This document shows, piece after piece, positions 5,883 to 56,225 of a stretch of DNA of 64,000 nucleotides. Within the stretch, counting starts at the first letter, position 1. Each line of letters begins with the position of its first letter. The notes below the pieces were generated by a model. The model ran no database searches. It saw only the letters and a list, made by a program, of their open reading frames with translations, and had not been told where the DNA came from. The DNA is from Chthonomonadaceae bacterium. GTDB lineage: Bacteria > Armatimonadota > Chthonomonadetes > Chthonomonadales > Chthonomonadaceae. Both the position numbers and the translations under genes were made by a program. The stretch covers positions 1-64,000 of the forward strand of contig DAIDHN010000002.1 of assembly GCA_027459665.1 (NCBI GenBank). Direction: 5' to 3'.

Positions 5883-7862
5883 ATGCACATTCCCGACGGA
5901 GTATTAAGTCCATCTACATCTGCAGTATCAGCCGCAGTCATGGTTCCTGTGTGGGTTCTTTCTGCACGCAGCACACGCAAAAAACTGGGGCCGCGCCAGT
6001 TGCCCATGCTCGCTTTGGGTTCTGCGTTCTGCTTTACTATCATGATGTTCAATGTGCCTGCACCAGGCGGCACAACAGCACATCCGGTAGGAGGCACGCT
6101 GCTTGCTATTCTACTGGGGCCGTGGGCTGCAATAGTAGGCGTCAGCGTAGCACTGGCTATACAGGCTCTATTTTTTGGAGATGGAGGCATCCTCGCATAC
6201 GGGGCAAACTGCTGCACCATGGCATTTGTACTCCCGGTAATCGGCTACCTGGCATATCGCCTCATACTGGGCAAAAAACCGGCTTCGTCTCTACGACAGG
6301 CGTTTGCTGCAGCCGCAGGGTCATACATTGGCATCAATACGGCAGCAGCTGTGGTAGGGATATTGCTCGGCATTCAGCCACTACTCTTTCACAATGCGGC
6401 AGGGCAGGCGCTCTACTTCCCATTCGGTCTCAAAATCACCATGCCGGCCATGCTCGCAGCGCATCTCACTTTTGCAGGGCCTCTTGAGGCAATTGTCACA
6501 GCCCTGGTAGTGCGTGCACTGCAAAAAGACGGGTACGCATTTTATGGCGCCGCGACCGATGCCGTTTCCATAAAAGAAGGCAAAAGAGAGATGCTTTGGA
6601 TAGGGCTGCTTGCATTGATTGCCCTGTCGCCTCTCGGCCTTTTAGCACAGGGGGATGCATTTGGAGAGTGGAGTGCAAGCGGATTGAAACAGCAGCTGCA
6701 AAAAATCACAGGGCATGGCTACGTGCCCCAGGGCATGGCGAATATTCAGGCGCATGCCTACCATCCGTTGCACATGCTTGCCAACTACGGCCAGCCCGAT
6801 GCCGGCATGAGCGTATCTGGGTACCTGCTGGCTGCACTGGTTGGAACAGGCAGTATCGTAACAGTGGTGCTGCTGGCTGGCAGGCTGTTTGTTCGCAGTA
6901 GTAGTAAAGAAACAGAAACACGCAGCGATGAGGCTAAAGCAGCTCTCAGCAAAAATGATACCAGCATTCTCCCCGCCTGGATGTCAAAGCAAAACCCGCC
7001 GGATATGCGTACCCCACGGGGTAAGGCCAACCCATTTCTTAAGCGCACCCTGGCAGAACTGACTTCAGCCGGGGCAATATCCATGCGCTCTGACAAATGG
7101 GCGAATCAAGATGGGTTTCTGCAAACCATAGATGCACGTGCAAAACTGATTGGGCTGTTCATGATGATCGTAGCCGCTGCACTGCTACACTCGCTCATTC
7201 TGCTTGCACTGCTGCTGGCAATTGCAGTTGTTCTGATGCATGCCTCCAATCTTCCAACCGATTCCATTCAAAAACGCATCTGGCTCACTGTTCCGCTCTT
7301 CGTAGGAATCATGGCTCTTCCAGCCGCACTCAACAGCGTAACGCCCGGCAGAATTATACTGCCTCTCTGGCATCAGCCATACGTTGGCTTTACTATGCCG
7401 GGCATGCTTGTCGCAGCACTCATGGCAGCAAGGGTAGGCGTAACCATGTCGCTGGCAGCACTGCTTACGCTCACAACACCGTGGCAGCAGCTAATGCAGG
7501 CTATGCGCTGGCTGCGTATGCCGGCGCTGTTCGTTAGTCTCATGGGCATGACCTACAGATACATCGCCCTGCTGTTGCAAATATCCAATGAAATGTTTGT
7601 AGCACGCAACAGCAGAACGCTTGGAAGAGTAAACAATACCGAAGCAAGGCGTTTTGTTGGAACAAGTATAACAGCGCTCTTTCGCCGTACCATTGCCACA
7701 GCAGAAGAAGTCTATTTTGCCATGCTTGCCAGAGGCTATGACGGAGAAACGCATACTCTTGCAGAACCAGTTTGGAAGCTTCAGGATACTCTGTGGCTCG
7801 CCTTTGCAGCCATCACAGCATTCGCCTTTATGGCAGGAGAGTTTATACACTTACATGGTTAG
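5883..7862 (+). CDS. Cobalt/nickel ECF transporter: CbiM fused to CbiQ/EcfT
   Basis: A 659-residue membrane protein holding two normally separate subunits. Residues 1 to about 215 are the substrate-capture protein CbiM/NikM: it starts MHIPDGVLSP, where the N-terminal Met-His pair binds the metal, and has the multi-helix core with GGTTAHPVGGTL. Residues about 235-345 hold a CbiM-type C-terminal part (SPLGLLAQGDAFGEW) and another helix. From about residue 410 it is the coupling protein CbiQ/EcfT (IDARAKLIG, GMTYRYIALLLQ, and the ARG motif in AMLARGYDG that docks on the ATPase). Reading is continuous with no sign of a frameshift. The ATPase gene overlaps by 8 bases, giving a complete importer in two genes. 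Ni2+ or Co2+ cannot be told apart from the sequence; fdhD, yqjI-like padR and corrin genes give no decisive hint. Confidence 0.88.
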   Translation: MHIPDGVLSPSTSAVSAAVMVPVWVLSARSTRKKLGPRQLPMLALGSAFCFTIMMFNVPAPGGTTAHPVGGTLLAILLGPWAAIVGVSVALAIQALFFGDGGILAYGANCCTMAFVLPVIGYLAYRLILGKKPASSLRQAFAAAAGSYIGINTAAAVVGILLGIQPLLFHNAAGQALYFPFGLKITMPAMLAAHLTFAGPLEAIVTALVVRALQKDGYAFYGAATDAVSIKEGKREMLWIGLLALIALSPLGLLAQGDAFGEWSASGLKQQLQKITGHGYVPQGMANIQAHAYHPLHMLANYGQPDAGMSVSGYLLAALVGTGSIVTVVLLAGRLFVRSSSKETETRSDEAKAALSKNDTSILPAWMSKQNPPDMRTPRGKANPFLKRTLAELTSAGAISMRSDKWANQDGFLQTIDARAKLIGLFMMIVAAALLHSLILLALLLAIAVVLMHASNLPTDSIQKRIWLTVPLFVGIMALPAALNSVTPGRIILPLWHQPYVGFTMPGMLVAALMAARVGVTMSLAALLTLTTPWQQLMQAMRWLRMPALFVSLMGMTYRYIALLLQISNEMFVARNSRTLGRVNNTEARRFVGTSITALFRRTIATAEEVYFAMLARGYDGETHTLAEPVWKLQDTLWLAFAAITAFAFMAGEFIHLHG

Positions 7863-52050: not shown

Positions 52051-54012
52051 ATGACAGACATTGCAGAAACAGTCCCCCCAGTTTCTCTGTTCCCGCAAAT
52101 CGAAAAAGCCCTGCTGATACGTTCTGTAGAAGAACGATTGTTATCTCTGTTTGCTGAAGGTAAATTATTCGGCACTGTTCACACATGCATTGGCCAGGAA
52201 TTCACAGGAGTCGCCATTGCAGAATCTCTGCAGCAAGGTGATTTAATGTGCAGCAATCACCGCGGGCATGGGCATTTTATTGCTAAGACTAATAGAGTAG
52301 AAGAGCTGATTGCAGAAATAATGGGCAGGCAAAACGGAGTCTGCGGCGGCCGGGGAGGAAGTCAGCACATCTGCGCAGATGGATTCTACAGCAATGGCAT
52401 ACAAGGCGGCATGACAGCAGTAGGAGCCGGTTTGGCGCTTTCGCTTAAACTGAAAGAACAGCCCAATATCGTAGTTGTGTTTATTGGAGATGGCACTTTG
52501 GGTGAAGGGCTGCTTTACGAAACTTTCAACATTGCATCCAAATGGAACCTGCCTCTCATGGTTGTAATCGAAAACAATCTGTATGCGCAGTCTACATCAC
52601 AAACCCAAACCCTTGCCGGGGACATTCTGGCGCGGGCAGAAGCTTTTGGCATTAAAACAAAACACGCAGATACATGGAACTATGCTGCACTCATAGACAC
52701 GGCAAAAGAAGCCGTTGAGTACGTGAGGCAGGGAAACCCTCTCTTTTTTCGCATAGATACTTACAGACTCATGGCTCACTCTAAAGGAGATGATGACAGG
52801 TCATCAGATGAAGTAGAAGGCTATCGGCTGAAAGACCCGCTTACCCGCTTTCAGGCAGAATATCCCGACAAGGCGGCAGAAATGCTTGATCGCATAAAAC
52901 TGCGCATCGACGCTGCCGTTCAGGAAGCAGACAACGCACCATATACTGCTGCAATATCGGTATCTGAAGAAGAAATTGCAAAAACACAATCGGTATGGCA
53001 CGATATTCAGATTGCTCAGCCAGAAAGAATGTCAACCCTTCTGCATGGCAGCCTGCAGCGAAATATGCAAAGCAACCCCAACATCGTAATCATCGGAGAA
53101 GATATTGAAGGCCCCTACGGAGGAGCTTTCAAGGTGACTAAAAATTTAAGCCTAGAACACCCTGGGAGGGTGCGCAATACCCCCATATCTGAAGGAATGC
53201 TGTCGGGTGCAGGGAACGGTTTGGCGCTGGGAGGGTTGATACCTGTTGTAGAGATTATGTTTGGAGACTTTCTGACACTTTGCACAGATCAGTTCATCAA
53301 CCACGCCTCAAAATTTCGCTACATGTACAACGACAAGGTGACTCTGCCGGTCATTCTGCGTACCCCCATGGGGGGCAAAAGAGGTTATGGAGCCACGCAC
53401 AGTCAGTGCCTTGAGAAACACTTTCTCGGCCTGCCTGGTACACAAGTGCTTGCACTCAACAACCGCCTCGACCCGGGAATCATCTACGACACACTCTTTG
53501 CCTCTATCGACCGGCCAACACTGGTAATAGAAAACAAAATGCTCTATGCCATGCGGGTGCAAAGCGAAGCGCCAGAGGGTTTTACATGGCAGTATGATGA
53601 AGCACAGTTCCCCACTCTGCGTCTCAAACCGTATGGCGCTGCAGACCTCACTCTTCTCTGCTATGGAGGCATGCTGCCAGATGCAGAAAAAGCAGTGGAT
53701 ACCCTTTTTGAAGAATATGACATCATCGCTGAAATCATTTGCCCAATACAGCTTTACCCCCTCAATCCGTGGCCGGTAATAGAATCTGTACAGCACAGCG
53801 GCAGGTTGATTGTAGTGGAAGAAGGTCACAATTTTGCAGCGTTTGGTTCAGAAGTAATCAGCCAAATGATGCTGCACAGCCCAGGCGCTTTGAAAAAACT
53901 GGAACGCGTTGGGCCGCCGCTACATCCAATACCCTCCTGTGGCCCTCTGGAAAAAGCGCTTCTGCCAGGGGTTTCTCATATCGTGGAAGCTGGAAAGCGA
54001 GTAATGCAATGA
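52051..54012 (+). CDS. Fused alpha-beta 2-oxoacid dehydrogenase E1 component
   Basis: Thiamine-diphosphate enzyme that decarboxylates a 2-oxoacid and passes the acyl unit to a lipoyl group. 653 residues. The alpha part (1 to about 320) has GTVHTCIGQE, HRGHGHFIAK, and the ThDP motif GDG (146-148) to NN (175-176). The beta part (about 335-653) has IGEDIEGPYGGAF, PISEGMLSGAGNGLALGGLIPVVEIMFGDF and TPMGGKRGYGATHSQ. The fused form exists in other phyla. Whether pyruvate, a branched-chain keto acid or a ketose donor is used cannot be said. The E2 gene overlaps (ATGA), and no E3 lies nearby. Confidence 0.93.
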   Translation: MTDIAETVPPVSLFPQIEKALLIRSVEERLLSLFAEGKLFGTVHTCIGQEFTGVAIAESLQQGDLMCSNHRGHGHFIAKTNRVEELIAEIMGRQNGVCGGRGGSQHICADGFYSNGIQGGMTAVGAGLALSLKLKEQPNIVVVFIGDGTLGEGLLYETFNIASKWNLPLMVVIENNLYAQSTSQTQTLAGDILARAEAFGIKTKHADTWNYAALIDTAKEAVEYVRQGNPLFFRIDTYRLMAHSKGDDDRSSDEVEGYRLKDPLTRFQAEYPDKAAEMLDRIKLRIDAAVQEADNAPYTAAISVSEEEIAKTQSVWHDIQIAQPERMSTLLHGSLQRNMQSNPNIVIIGEDIEGPYGGAFKVTKNLSLEHPGRVRNTPISEGMLSGAGNGLALGGLIPVVEIMFGDFLTLCTDQFINHASKFRYMYNDKVTLPVILRTPMGGKRGYGATHSQCLEKHFLGLPGTQVLALNNRLDPGIIYDTLFASIDRPTLVIENKMLYAMRVQSEAPEGFTWQYDEAQFPTLRLKPYGAADLTLLCYGGMLPDAEKAVDTLFEEYDIIAEIICPIQLYPLNPWPVIESVQHSGRLIVVEEGHNFAAFGSEVISQMMLHSPGALKKLERVGPPLHPIPSCGPLEKALLPGVSHIVEAGKRVMQ

Positions 54013-55538
54013 GTCAGCCAGTGCCCGTAACTGCGCCCTTGAACAATGTTAACGATGAATCTGTTGTGATACTTGAATGGCTCAAGCCGGATGGAGCAGC
54101 TGTAAGCGCAGGAGAACCTGTGGTCTCTTTCGAAACAAGCAAGGCAAATGTAGAAATAGAAGCGCCAGCCAGCGGATATCTCAAGCACTCTACTCGTGTC
54201 GGGCAGGAGGTGCCTGTTGGCGCGGTGCTCTGCTACATAGTAGAAAACGCAGATCAGCCTATCGCCAAAGCAGCCCCAGAGCCAGTACAGCAGCCCCCAG
54301 CTGCTCAGGTAAACACCGAACAATCACTGCAGCGCTTTACCCCGGTTGCCCGCAAGCTGGCACAAGAGCAGGGCCTGGAGGCGCATAATTTTGAAGGAAC
54401 CGGCCGTATTCGCAAAGAGGATGTATTGGCTCAGGCAGCCAATGGAACCTCTGCTTCTGCCCTGCAAACAGAACAGACTTGGCCGCTTGTACGTTTCAGC
54501 ACAGCCGCCAAAACATTGATGAACCAGCACAATCTTTCACCAGATAGGTTTACTGGCAAAGGGTTGATTCGCGTGCAGGATGTAGAACGCTTCCTCTCAC
54601 CACCCGCAGCACCGGTTACAGTGCAAAACCAACCCATTAGCATAGAACATCTCTCTGCTCTTCAGCATTCCCCAGCAGCTGGGGTGCCTGTTGAAAAAGA
54701 GGCTCTGCCGCGCCGCAAAAAAATGGAAATTAAAAACCTGGCAGCCGGCCTTTCAGCCTCTGTAACCAGTGCAGTTTCTGTCGCCTGCCCAACTCGAAGC
54801 CTCAAAAACGCACTCCGAAGCCACCCCGAACTGAGGGGAAGTGCTACTGCACTCATTGTATATGAATGTGCTCGTCTGCTCAAACAATTTCGTGTATTCA
54901 ATGGCTGTTACATCGCTGGAGAGGCTCTCTATTACCAGCAGGTTAACGTAGGATTTGCTATTGATGCCGGCTTTGGACTGAAAGTGCCCGTGATTCCTGT
55001 TGCAGATTCGCTTACTATTGCTGAAATAGCAGAAGAAATGAACAAACACATCCTGGCCTACATGGAAGACAAGCTGCCTCCTGAAAGCCAGAGCGGTGGC
55101 ACATTCACGATTTCCGACCTGTCAAGCGAGGGGGTATTCAGCCTGTTTCCACTCATCAGTTCCGGCCAAAGCGCTATACTGGGGGTAGGCGGTGAATTTT
55201 TCGCTTCAGAAAACAGTGAAGGTTTCTTTACTCTCACGCTCTCATTCGATCATCAACTCGGAGACGGCAGGCAGGCTGCAAAGTTTCTCAATGCGCTGCG
55301 CGACCGCCTTACTGCATATGAAGCTGCCTGCACCCCGCCCCCACTGCCTGGTCCGCCCAATATACCAGCCCATGCACCAGCTGCAGCTCCCCTGTGGAGC
55401 ACTGAAGGCGACCTGGAATGCAGCCGCTGCCTTAGAGCAATGCCCGATCTTCAACAGCTAAGTGCCTATCTTGTGCCAACCGTGCAGTCGGAAGGCAAAA
55501 TCCGTTTACTATGCTCTCTCTGCCTGGGAGGTTTTTGA
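54009..55538 (+). CDS. Dihydrolipoamide acyltransferase (E2) with C-terminal Cys4 motif
   Basis: 509 residues. A lipoyl domain (1-80) carries ETSKANVEIEAP with the lipoylated Lys45. Two peripheral-subunit-binding domains follow (about 109-143, TPVARKLAQEQGL; about 162-196, STAAKTLMNQHNL). The acyltransferase domain (about 235-440) ends with the HxxxDG active-site motif SFDHQLGDG (His415, Asp419). A proline-rich linker and CxxC-x27-CxxC (C471, C474, C502, C505) form an extra, zinc-ribbon-like end that normal E2 proteins lack. The first ATG lies within the overlap with the E1 stop; the long upstream open frame (from 53739) is only E1 sequence in another frame. In a cluster with E1 and a carrier/PPTase. 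Confidence 0.9.
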   Translation: MSQPVPVTAPLNNVNDESVVILEWLKPDGAAVSAGEPVVSFETSKANVEIEAPASGYLKHSTRVGQEVPVGAVLCYIVENADQPIAKAAPEPVQQPPAAQVNTEQSLQRFTPVARKLAQEQGLEAHNFEGTGRIRKEDVLAQAANGTSASALQTEQTWPLVRFSTAAKTLMNQHNLSPDRFTGKGLIRVQDVERFLSPPAAPVTVQNQPISIEHLSALQHSPAAGVPVEKEALPRRKKMEIKNLAAGLSASVTSAVSVACPTRSLKNALRSHPELRGSATALIVYECARLLKQFRVFNGCYIAGEALYYQQVNVGFAIDAGFGLKVPVIPVADSLTIAEIAEEMNKHILAYMEDKLPPESQSGGTFTISDLSSEGVFSLFPLISSGQSAILGVGGEFFASENSEGFFTLTLSFDHQLGDGRQAAKFLNALRDRLTAYEAACTPPPLPGPPNIPAHAPAAAPLWSTEGDLECSRCLRAMPDLQQLSAYLVPTVQSEGKIRLLCSLCLGGF

Positions 55539-56225
55539 TTGGAAGACCAGACTACCCTAAAAAACCTGATTGCTGCTTTTTTTGAGACGGATGCCAGCCA
55601 GATTTCACCAGAGTTCCTGCTGAGCGGCCCTCGCCTCTCTTCTTCATCCGCAAGGTATACTCTCGAAGCTGCAATACGCCGCAAATTGGGGCGTTCTGCT
55701 CCCGAAGTGCATACTGCTCGTACCTATGGAGAACTGGAAAAAGCTCTCGTGGGCAGCTCATCTCATCAGCCCCTTACACCAGCTGCTGCGCCGAAACCAG
55801 CTGCAATGCCAGATACTCAGCAGACGCAAATCTCTGCAGAAGCAAGACCCACAACGGTATTTCCTATGCACAACGGCCTCAAATGTGGCGTAGATATTGA
55901 GACAGCTGAGGGAATGCCACAGGCAGAAGACTACTGGACGCATTCCTTTTATGCAGAAAACTTCACTCAAAAAGAATTGGCTTACTGCCAGATGCAGCAT
56001 AATCCACGCTTGCACTTTGCGGCTCGATGGTGCGCCAAGGAGGCAGCAAAAAAATGTATTGCAGACCTACTCGCCGAACCTATGATCTCTATTGAAGTGG
56101 TACGCGAATCTTCCGGGGCGGTACACCTTATTCACCACTCCCCCCCCGGCCCAAGAAGGCTGCCGCTTGCCCTCAGCCTGTCACATTCTGGCAATATTGC
56201 AATTGCAATGGTTGTTGGCTACTAA
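55539..56225 (+). CDS. Fused acyl-carrier-like domain and phosphopantetheinyl transferase
   Basis: 228 residues. Residues about 5-70 look like an acyl carrier protein (LIAAFFETDASQISPEFLL, then RTYGELEKAL at the last helix), but the DSL site is replaced by SSSS (34-37), one of which may take the phosphopantetheine arm. A proline/alanine-rich linker (about 71-108) leads to an AcpS/Sfp-type transferase (about 115-225): CGVDIET with the metal Asp119, ARWCAKEAAKK with Glu168, and the end SLSHSGNIAIAMVVG with the His. TTG start, GGGAGG 7 bases upstream, following the E2 stop without a gap. It ends the operon. The fusion would let the transferase activate its own carrier. Confidence 0.82.
   Translation: MEDQTTLKNLIAAFFETDASQISPEFLLSGPRLSSSSARYTLEAAIRRKLGRSAPEVHTARTYGELEKALVGSSSHQPLTPAAAPKPAAMPDTQQTQISAEARPTTVFPMHNGLKCGVDIETAEGMPQAEDYWTHSFYAENFTQKELAYCQMQHNPRLHFAARWCAKEAAKKCIADLLAEPMISIEVVRESSGAVHLIHHSPPGPRRLPLALSLSHSGNIAIAMVVGY

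Follow-up and report, generated by a model that had tools for sequence, protein, structure and literature searches.

What could be made by three linked genes that encode an E1, an E2, and a carrier protein joined to its own phosphopantetheinyl transferase (PPTase) is the question raised by positions 52051-56225 of the window, the 64,000-nucleotide stretch of a Chthonomonadaceae bacterium contig that was analyzed. A sequence-only reading had described these genes as coupled through ATGA and zero-base junctions, and all three were confirmed on the plus strand exactly as described. Specifically, the E2 start (54009) falls within the E1 stop as an ATGA overlap, and the E2 stop (55536-55538) is followed without an intervening base by a TTG start (55539) that is preceded by GGAGG. 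Support for this TTG start comes from a relative in the same family (G047), whose corresponding gene begins with an ATG that overlaps the stop of E2 (TAATG). The trio is flanked by relA, which ends 159 bp upstream, and by xseA, which starts 29 bp downstream; a scan for promoters and terminators returned nothing clearly exceeding shuffled sequences. At a distance from the trio (5883-7862), a single 659-aa frame appears by eye to join two parts of a cobalt/nickel transporter, one CbiM-like and the other CbiQ-like.

The first gene (52051..54012, +) encodes a 653-aa E1 in which the alpha and beta parts of a pyruvate/branched-chain type thiamine-diphosphate (TPP) dehydrogenase/decarboxylase are combined in one chain (Pfam E1_dh, 1.7e-48; Transket_pyr, 9.5e-24; Transketolase_C, 6.9e-14). 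Its profile matched solved E1 alpha and beta chains. The TPP motif GDG...NN (G146 D147 G148...N175 N176) was retained, as were Glu381 (TPISE) and His450 (THSQ) of the beta part, all of them invariant in alignment A1, such that the residues expected of a 2-oxo acid dehydrogenase E1 are in place. In a phylogenetic tree, the E1 proteins of trio loci fell in a distinct clade, with a branch of 2.08 changes per site between it and ordinary E1s. An HSKGDD loop is a signature of this clade and does not name the acyl group. One locus labeled as a Klebsiella pneumoniae metagenome-assembled genome (L084) grouped in the same tree with a Verrucomicrobia locus, and its label is probably wrong.

The 509-aa E2 (54009..55538, +) gave Pfam matches above cut-offs to Biotin_lipoyl, E3_binding, and 2-oxoacid_dh, and its AlphaFold model had a pLDDT of 83.5. 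Consistent with a 2-oxo acid dehydrogenase E2, it carries a lipoyl domain with attachment residue Lys45 (ETSKANVEIEAP; 54141..54143, +), a first peripheral subunit-binding domain (PSBD) for E3 or E1 (54339..54428, +; PF02817, 4e-7), and a CAT acyltransferase domain (54798..55322, +; PF00198, 6e-34) with active-site His415 (FDHQLGDG; 55251-55253, +); both Lys45 and His415 are invariant in 32/32 E2 proteins. A second PSBD-like unit (RFSTAAKTLMNQHNLSPDRFTGKGLIRVQDVERFL; 54501..54596, +) was assigned by sequence resemblance and by helices in the model (165-196), with no separate Pfam match. The protein ends in an unusual, zinc-ribbon-like Cys4 tail, CSRC-x27-CSLC (55419..55523, +), whose cysteines (C471, C474, C502, and C505) are invariant in the E2s of trio loci (32/32). 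Neither this tail nor the second PSBD-like unit had been noted in the sequence-only reading.

No E3 gene was found in the operon between relA and xseA. The earlier statement that E3 is missing therefore holds for the operon and fails for the genome, which encodes a lipoamide dehydrogenase (G000:C3:56097-57530; 540.9 bits, above the curated cut-off) as well as LipA. Many true 2-oxo acid dehydrogenase complexes share an E3, and its absence from an operon is a weak criterion; we therefore set aside the missing E3 as an argument for carrier loading.

The third gene (55539..56225, +) encodes a 228-aa protein whose C-terminal part is a PPTase domain of the AcpS/fungal fatty acid synthase type (55884..56174, +). 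This domain matched PF01648 above the cut-off (E=1.6e-12), contains the GxDxE and KEAxxK motifs of AcpS-type enzymes (CGVDIE and RWCAKEAAKK), and returned the PPT domain of fatty acid synthase and AcpS as Foldseek matches (best E about 1e-7). A C-terminal hydrophobic helix, probably membrane-anchoring, is present on the PPTase in about 20 relatives and is lacking in the window's copy.

The N-terminal domain (residues 1-72; 55539..55754, +) had no Pfam match when searched alone, PF00550 included. Four observations nevertheless identify it as a carrier, in agreement with the sequence-only reading. First, Ser36 (55644..55646, +), the predicted phosphopantetheine attachment site, is invariant in 36/36 relatives, whose carrier domains share 14-47% identity with that of the window. 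Second, the family profile aligned end-to-end with the AcpP of the same genome (hhalign, E=2.7e-5), placing Ser36 on the serine of the DSL motif. Third, of the natural proteins in the PDB, it was acyl carrier proteins (ACPs) that kept recurring at the top of the matches (2ehs, E=0.01), with designed double-psi-barrel proteins reaching similar scores over short stretches. Fourth, the AlphaFold model is a four-helix bundle (pLDDT about 95) in which helix II (36-50) begins at Ser36, the position expected of an ACP. The DSL motif itself is absent: the window has SSS and relatives mostly have [SGNT]S[LIVM], with Ser, Gly, Asn, or Thr standing in for the Asp before the serine across the family.

Given this architecture, the PPTase could be the housekeeping holo-ACP synthase of the cell, joined to a regulatory or relic carrier. 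Two PPTases were found in the genome, and this is indeed the one of AcpS type; in addition, three relatives (G048-G050) have a PPTase of the trio lineage standing alone directly after relA (L076 8564-8989; L077 6815-7240; L078 1482-1955), with no E1 of the trio clade found. Such retention indicates that the PPTase can be useful without E1, E2, and ACP, and that in this family the trio probably once occupied this site after relA and was later reduced there. The second PPTase of the genome is a longer, Sfp-like enzyme (L079 9288-10052), the only type found in relative G045; a main role for the trio PPTase as sole holo-ACP synthase was rejected on this account. Moreover, a relic carrier would not have kept an invariant Ser36, and we consider the housekeeping explanation highly improbable.

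The trio was then searched for in other Armatimonadota, a check that the sequence-only reading had proposed. Among 291 genomes it was found in that of the window, in G047, and in G028 and G030 of another family; the E1 of G047 is 67-69% identical to that of the window. Scanning GTDB contigs with the E1 alignment yielded 80 loci. The order E1-E2-ACP/PPTase was present in 39 distinct loci (the window included, and L124 and L126 among them) from at least 11 phyla, going by record titles, which argues that the arrangement is not due to chance. Cultured bacteria such as Niastella populi (L142) and Pollutibacter soli are among the carriers.

These comparisons bear on whether the trio is simply a conventional dehydrogenase complex for 2-oxo acids or acetoin that makes acyl-CoA, with the carrier/PPTase as an unrelated passenger. 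Both E1 and E2 belong to the right families with motifs intact, an E3 is available in the genome, and the E1 has an HSK pattern like that of acetoin dehydrogenases. The passenger explanation is nonetheless distinctly unlikely, as the carrier/PPTase is kept with E1 and E2 throughout the 39 loci and was seen at none of 20 ordinary E1 loci, the E1 clade sits on its long branch, and the Cys4 tail of E2 accompanies the fused ACP. This tail is missing from E2s whose ACPs are free (L119, L144, and L154) and is present at L085, L088, and L096, where no ACP/PPTase was detected. Its invariance in the trio E2s makes it a candidate dock, and it may thus hold the ACP/PPTase to E2.

Genes around the trio point to a use for the acyl group. 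The usual neighbors are glycosyltransferase, nucleotide-sugar epimerase, asparagine synthase, and DegT aminotransferase genes. An acyltransferase gene of the hexapeptide, Acyl_transf_3, or MBOAT type lay within 5 kb of 31/38 trio loci and 0/20 ordinary E1 loci, the latter all from Armatimonadota, as scored with profiles that had been built from the same trio neighborhoods. The corresponding Fisher test gave 5e-10, a value that is indicative only, as are all neighborhood p-values here, given this origin of the profiles and controls and because trio loci share ancestry and are not mutually independent. Glycan genes were nearby at 27/38 trio loci and 4/20 ordinary E1 loci. In many trio loci, a hexapeptide gene, often WcaF-like, is located immediately 5' of E1; Acyl_transf_3 genes adjoin the trio in L073, L098, and L145, and in G047 such a gene follows the PPTase by 19 bp. 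No acyltransferase was found within 5 kb of the trio at L070, L091, L092, L117, or L089. The window's own trio has relA and xseA at its flanks, with no acyltransferase or glycan gene adjoining it; 13 matches to Acyl_transf_3 above the cut-off lie elsewhere in the genome, and any of them could be a candidate consumer of acyl-ACP.

An alternative use for an acyl-ACP would be to prime or feed the synthesis of fatty acids, polyketides, or lipids rather than glycan acylation, and the sequence-only reading had suggested a primer for an unusual lipid. Some relatives fit such a role: at L120 a polyketide synthase module (KS-DH-KR-ACP) forms one protein with the E2, nonribosomal peptide synthetase (NRPS) genes stand beside L085, L088, L123, and L155, KS genes lie near L093 and L096, and KS/CLF genes adjoin E1 alpha and beta in two Armatimonadota. 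These loci are a minority, KS genes being near few relatives only, and the E1s of the KS/CLF loci fall outside the trio clade. The absence of NRPS and PKS genes from the window, as read earlier, was borne out by inspection of its frames by eye. In positions 41001-64000, NRPS and KS profiles had no matches, only E1, lipoyl, CAT, ACP, and PPT profiles being matched, and these two surveys likewise turned up no NRPS condensation or KAS III partner near the trio. Most trio loci instead adjoin glycosyltransferases, nucleotide-sugar enzymes, and sugar or O-acyltransferases, neighbors that point to glycan acylation; the lipid primer was accordingly graded weak, and a lipid or polyketide destination in general appears unlikely.

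The two KS/CLF operons (L074 3709-7840; L075 5638-13586) encode E1 alpha and E1 beta along with KS and a KS-like/CLF protein whose Cys has been replaced, to which L075 adds a lipoyl and PSBD protein lacking a CAT domain, AcpS, and FabG. They are possibly type II fatty acid or polyketide synthases fed by E1, and a link between them and the trio was rejected on the basis of the tree. Separately, contig G000:C43 of the window's genome (L165 1-3189) encodes an adenylation-PCP protein that has membrane segments as well as hexapeptide-like stretches in tandem and that resembles, by eye, poly-lysine-synthetase-like enzymes.

Natural variants of the trio help to show how it may work. At about 20 further loci, E1 is followed by a gene that joins a lipoyl domain to a hexapeptide or PglD-type amino-sugar acyltransferase, and CAT, ACP, and PPTase are all absent (L105, L100, L102, L103, L106-L108, L111, L114-L116, L118, L121, L122, L135, L136, L138, L151, and L153). 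In these loci, a type also carried by Dokdonia pacifica in its lipoyl-PglD form, the lipoyl arm apparently serves the sugar acyltransferase directly. Two of them (L121 and L122) encode an unfused PglD-type enzyme besides the lipoyl-fused one, which suggests that the fused enzyme uses a non-acetyl group. Other loci carry a free ACP: L119 (9745-15745) encodes a free ACP, E1, E2, and MBOAT in that order, L144 (6536-12921) encodes E1, E2, a free ACP, one intervening protein, and MBOAT, and in L154 the E2 is beside a free ACP. Together with the conservation of the trio, the invariant carrier serine, the polyketide synthase fusion at L120, and the precedent of pepteridine discussed below, these free-ACP relatives uphold the earlier proposal of dedicated acyl loading onto a self-activated carrier, and we regard the loading of acyl groups onto ACP by the trio as well supported.

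Overall, we favor, as somewhat the likelier outcome, a pathway in which TPP- and lipoyl-dependent production of acyl-ACP feeds the acylation of surface glycans. In such a pathway, E1 would use TPP to decarboxylate a 2-oxo acid, or to cleave a related ketone or ketose donor, and would hand the resulting acyl group to E2 on its lipoyl arm. The CAT domain would then transfer it to the phosphopantetheine thiol of ACP, which would replace CoA, the arm having been placed on Ser36 by the fused PPTase; the shared E3 of the genome, recruited by the PSBDs, would reoxidize the lipoyl arm. Acyl-ACP would finally act as donor for a hexapeptide, Acyl_transf_3, or MBOAT acyltransferase whose target is a surface polysaccharide or a sugar precursor. 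The catalytic residues, the predicted carrier fold, and the linkage of the genes are read from the sequence itself. The E1, lipoyl, and CAT transfer chemistry would follow from the enzyme families, and the transfers up to lipoyl reoxidation from family chemistry and precedent; ACP is the putative acceptor on account of co-conservation and precedent. Use of acyl-ACP for glycan acylation is deduced from the neighborhoods of relatives. The group transferred is probably something other than acetyl, for which acetyl-CoA would suffice.

We further consider it about evenly balanced whether the E1 clade as a whole serves a widespread route of glycan acylation, supplying non-acetyl acyl groups either through lipoyl-acyltransferase fusions or through E2 and a self-activating ACP/PPTase. 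If so, many bacteria would turn central metabolites into dedicated acyl-ACP that decorates surface polysaccharides, by a donor pathway apparently overlooked in exopolysaccharide annotation. The trio could then yield new polysaccharide modifications, and its enzymes could provide a compact, portable means of charging carrier proteins without CoA thioesters. In the literature searched, we found neither the ACP/PPTase fusion, the Cys4-tailed E2, or the separate E1 clade, nor lipoyl-acyltransferase fusions or a link of E1/E2 to glycan acylation. Nothing relevant was found there that connects the trio with polysaccharides, MBOAT, or hexapeptide enzymes; most subscription papers lay outside its coverage, and novelty is not proven.

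The charging of a carrier by E1 and E2 is a principle already known from a few natural-product pathways, and the trio likewise encodes E1 and E2 together with a carrier protein. In naphthyridinomycin-type pathways, the two-carbon unit reportedly derives from ketose phosphates, for which Peng 2012 is cited. Like the trio, the naphthyridinomycin, quinocarcin, and dnacin clusters (NapB, NapC, NapD, and NapE) encode thiamine proteins, transketolase-like ones in this case, together with a small ACP. Unlike in the trio, the ACP is a separate protein of 76 aa, and transketolase-like proteins of 306 and 754 aa take the place of a fused E1 plus E2 (all sizes being those in dnacin); KAS III and NRPS genes are also present, and a PPTase fusion is lacking (PMC7570522). 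In pepteridine biosynthesis of Photorhabdus, E1-like and E2-like proteins encoded in a cluster without E3 have been proposed to prime a carrier rather than CoA, with the E3 of the host (PMC5384830). That system differs from the trio in having an E2 fused to both the carrier and an NRPS C domain and in placing its acyl group on a pterin, and neither a PPTase fusion nor glycan genes are described for it (PMC5384830).

Pyruvate, branched-chain, and acetoin dehydrogenases share with the trio the domain order of E1 and E2, the TPP/lipoyl chemistry, and a shared E3, but have CoA as acceptor, no ACP/PPTase partner, and E1s that are distant in the tree. Their E2s are not known to carry a Cys4 tail. 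In Dlt D-alanylation (DltA, DltC, DltB, and DltD), a dedicated carrier supplies the acyl group for acylation of a surface polymer by an MBOAT protein, and the layouts of L119 and L144 suggest a similar pairing of dedicated carrier and MBOAT. The Dlt carrier is charged by ATP-dependent adenylation of D-Ala, whereas loading by E1 and E2 is proposed for the trio; if the widespread route of glycan acylation exists, acyl-lipoyl or acyl-ACP from TPP chemistry would be a third kind of donor besides acetyl-CoA and adenylated carriers.
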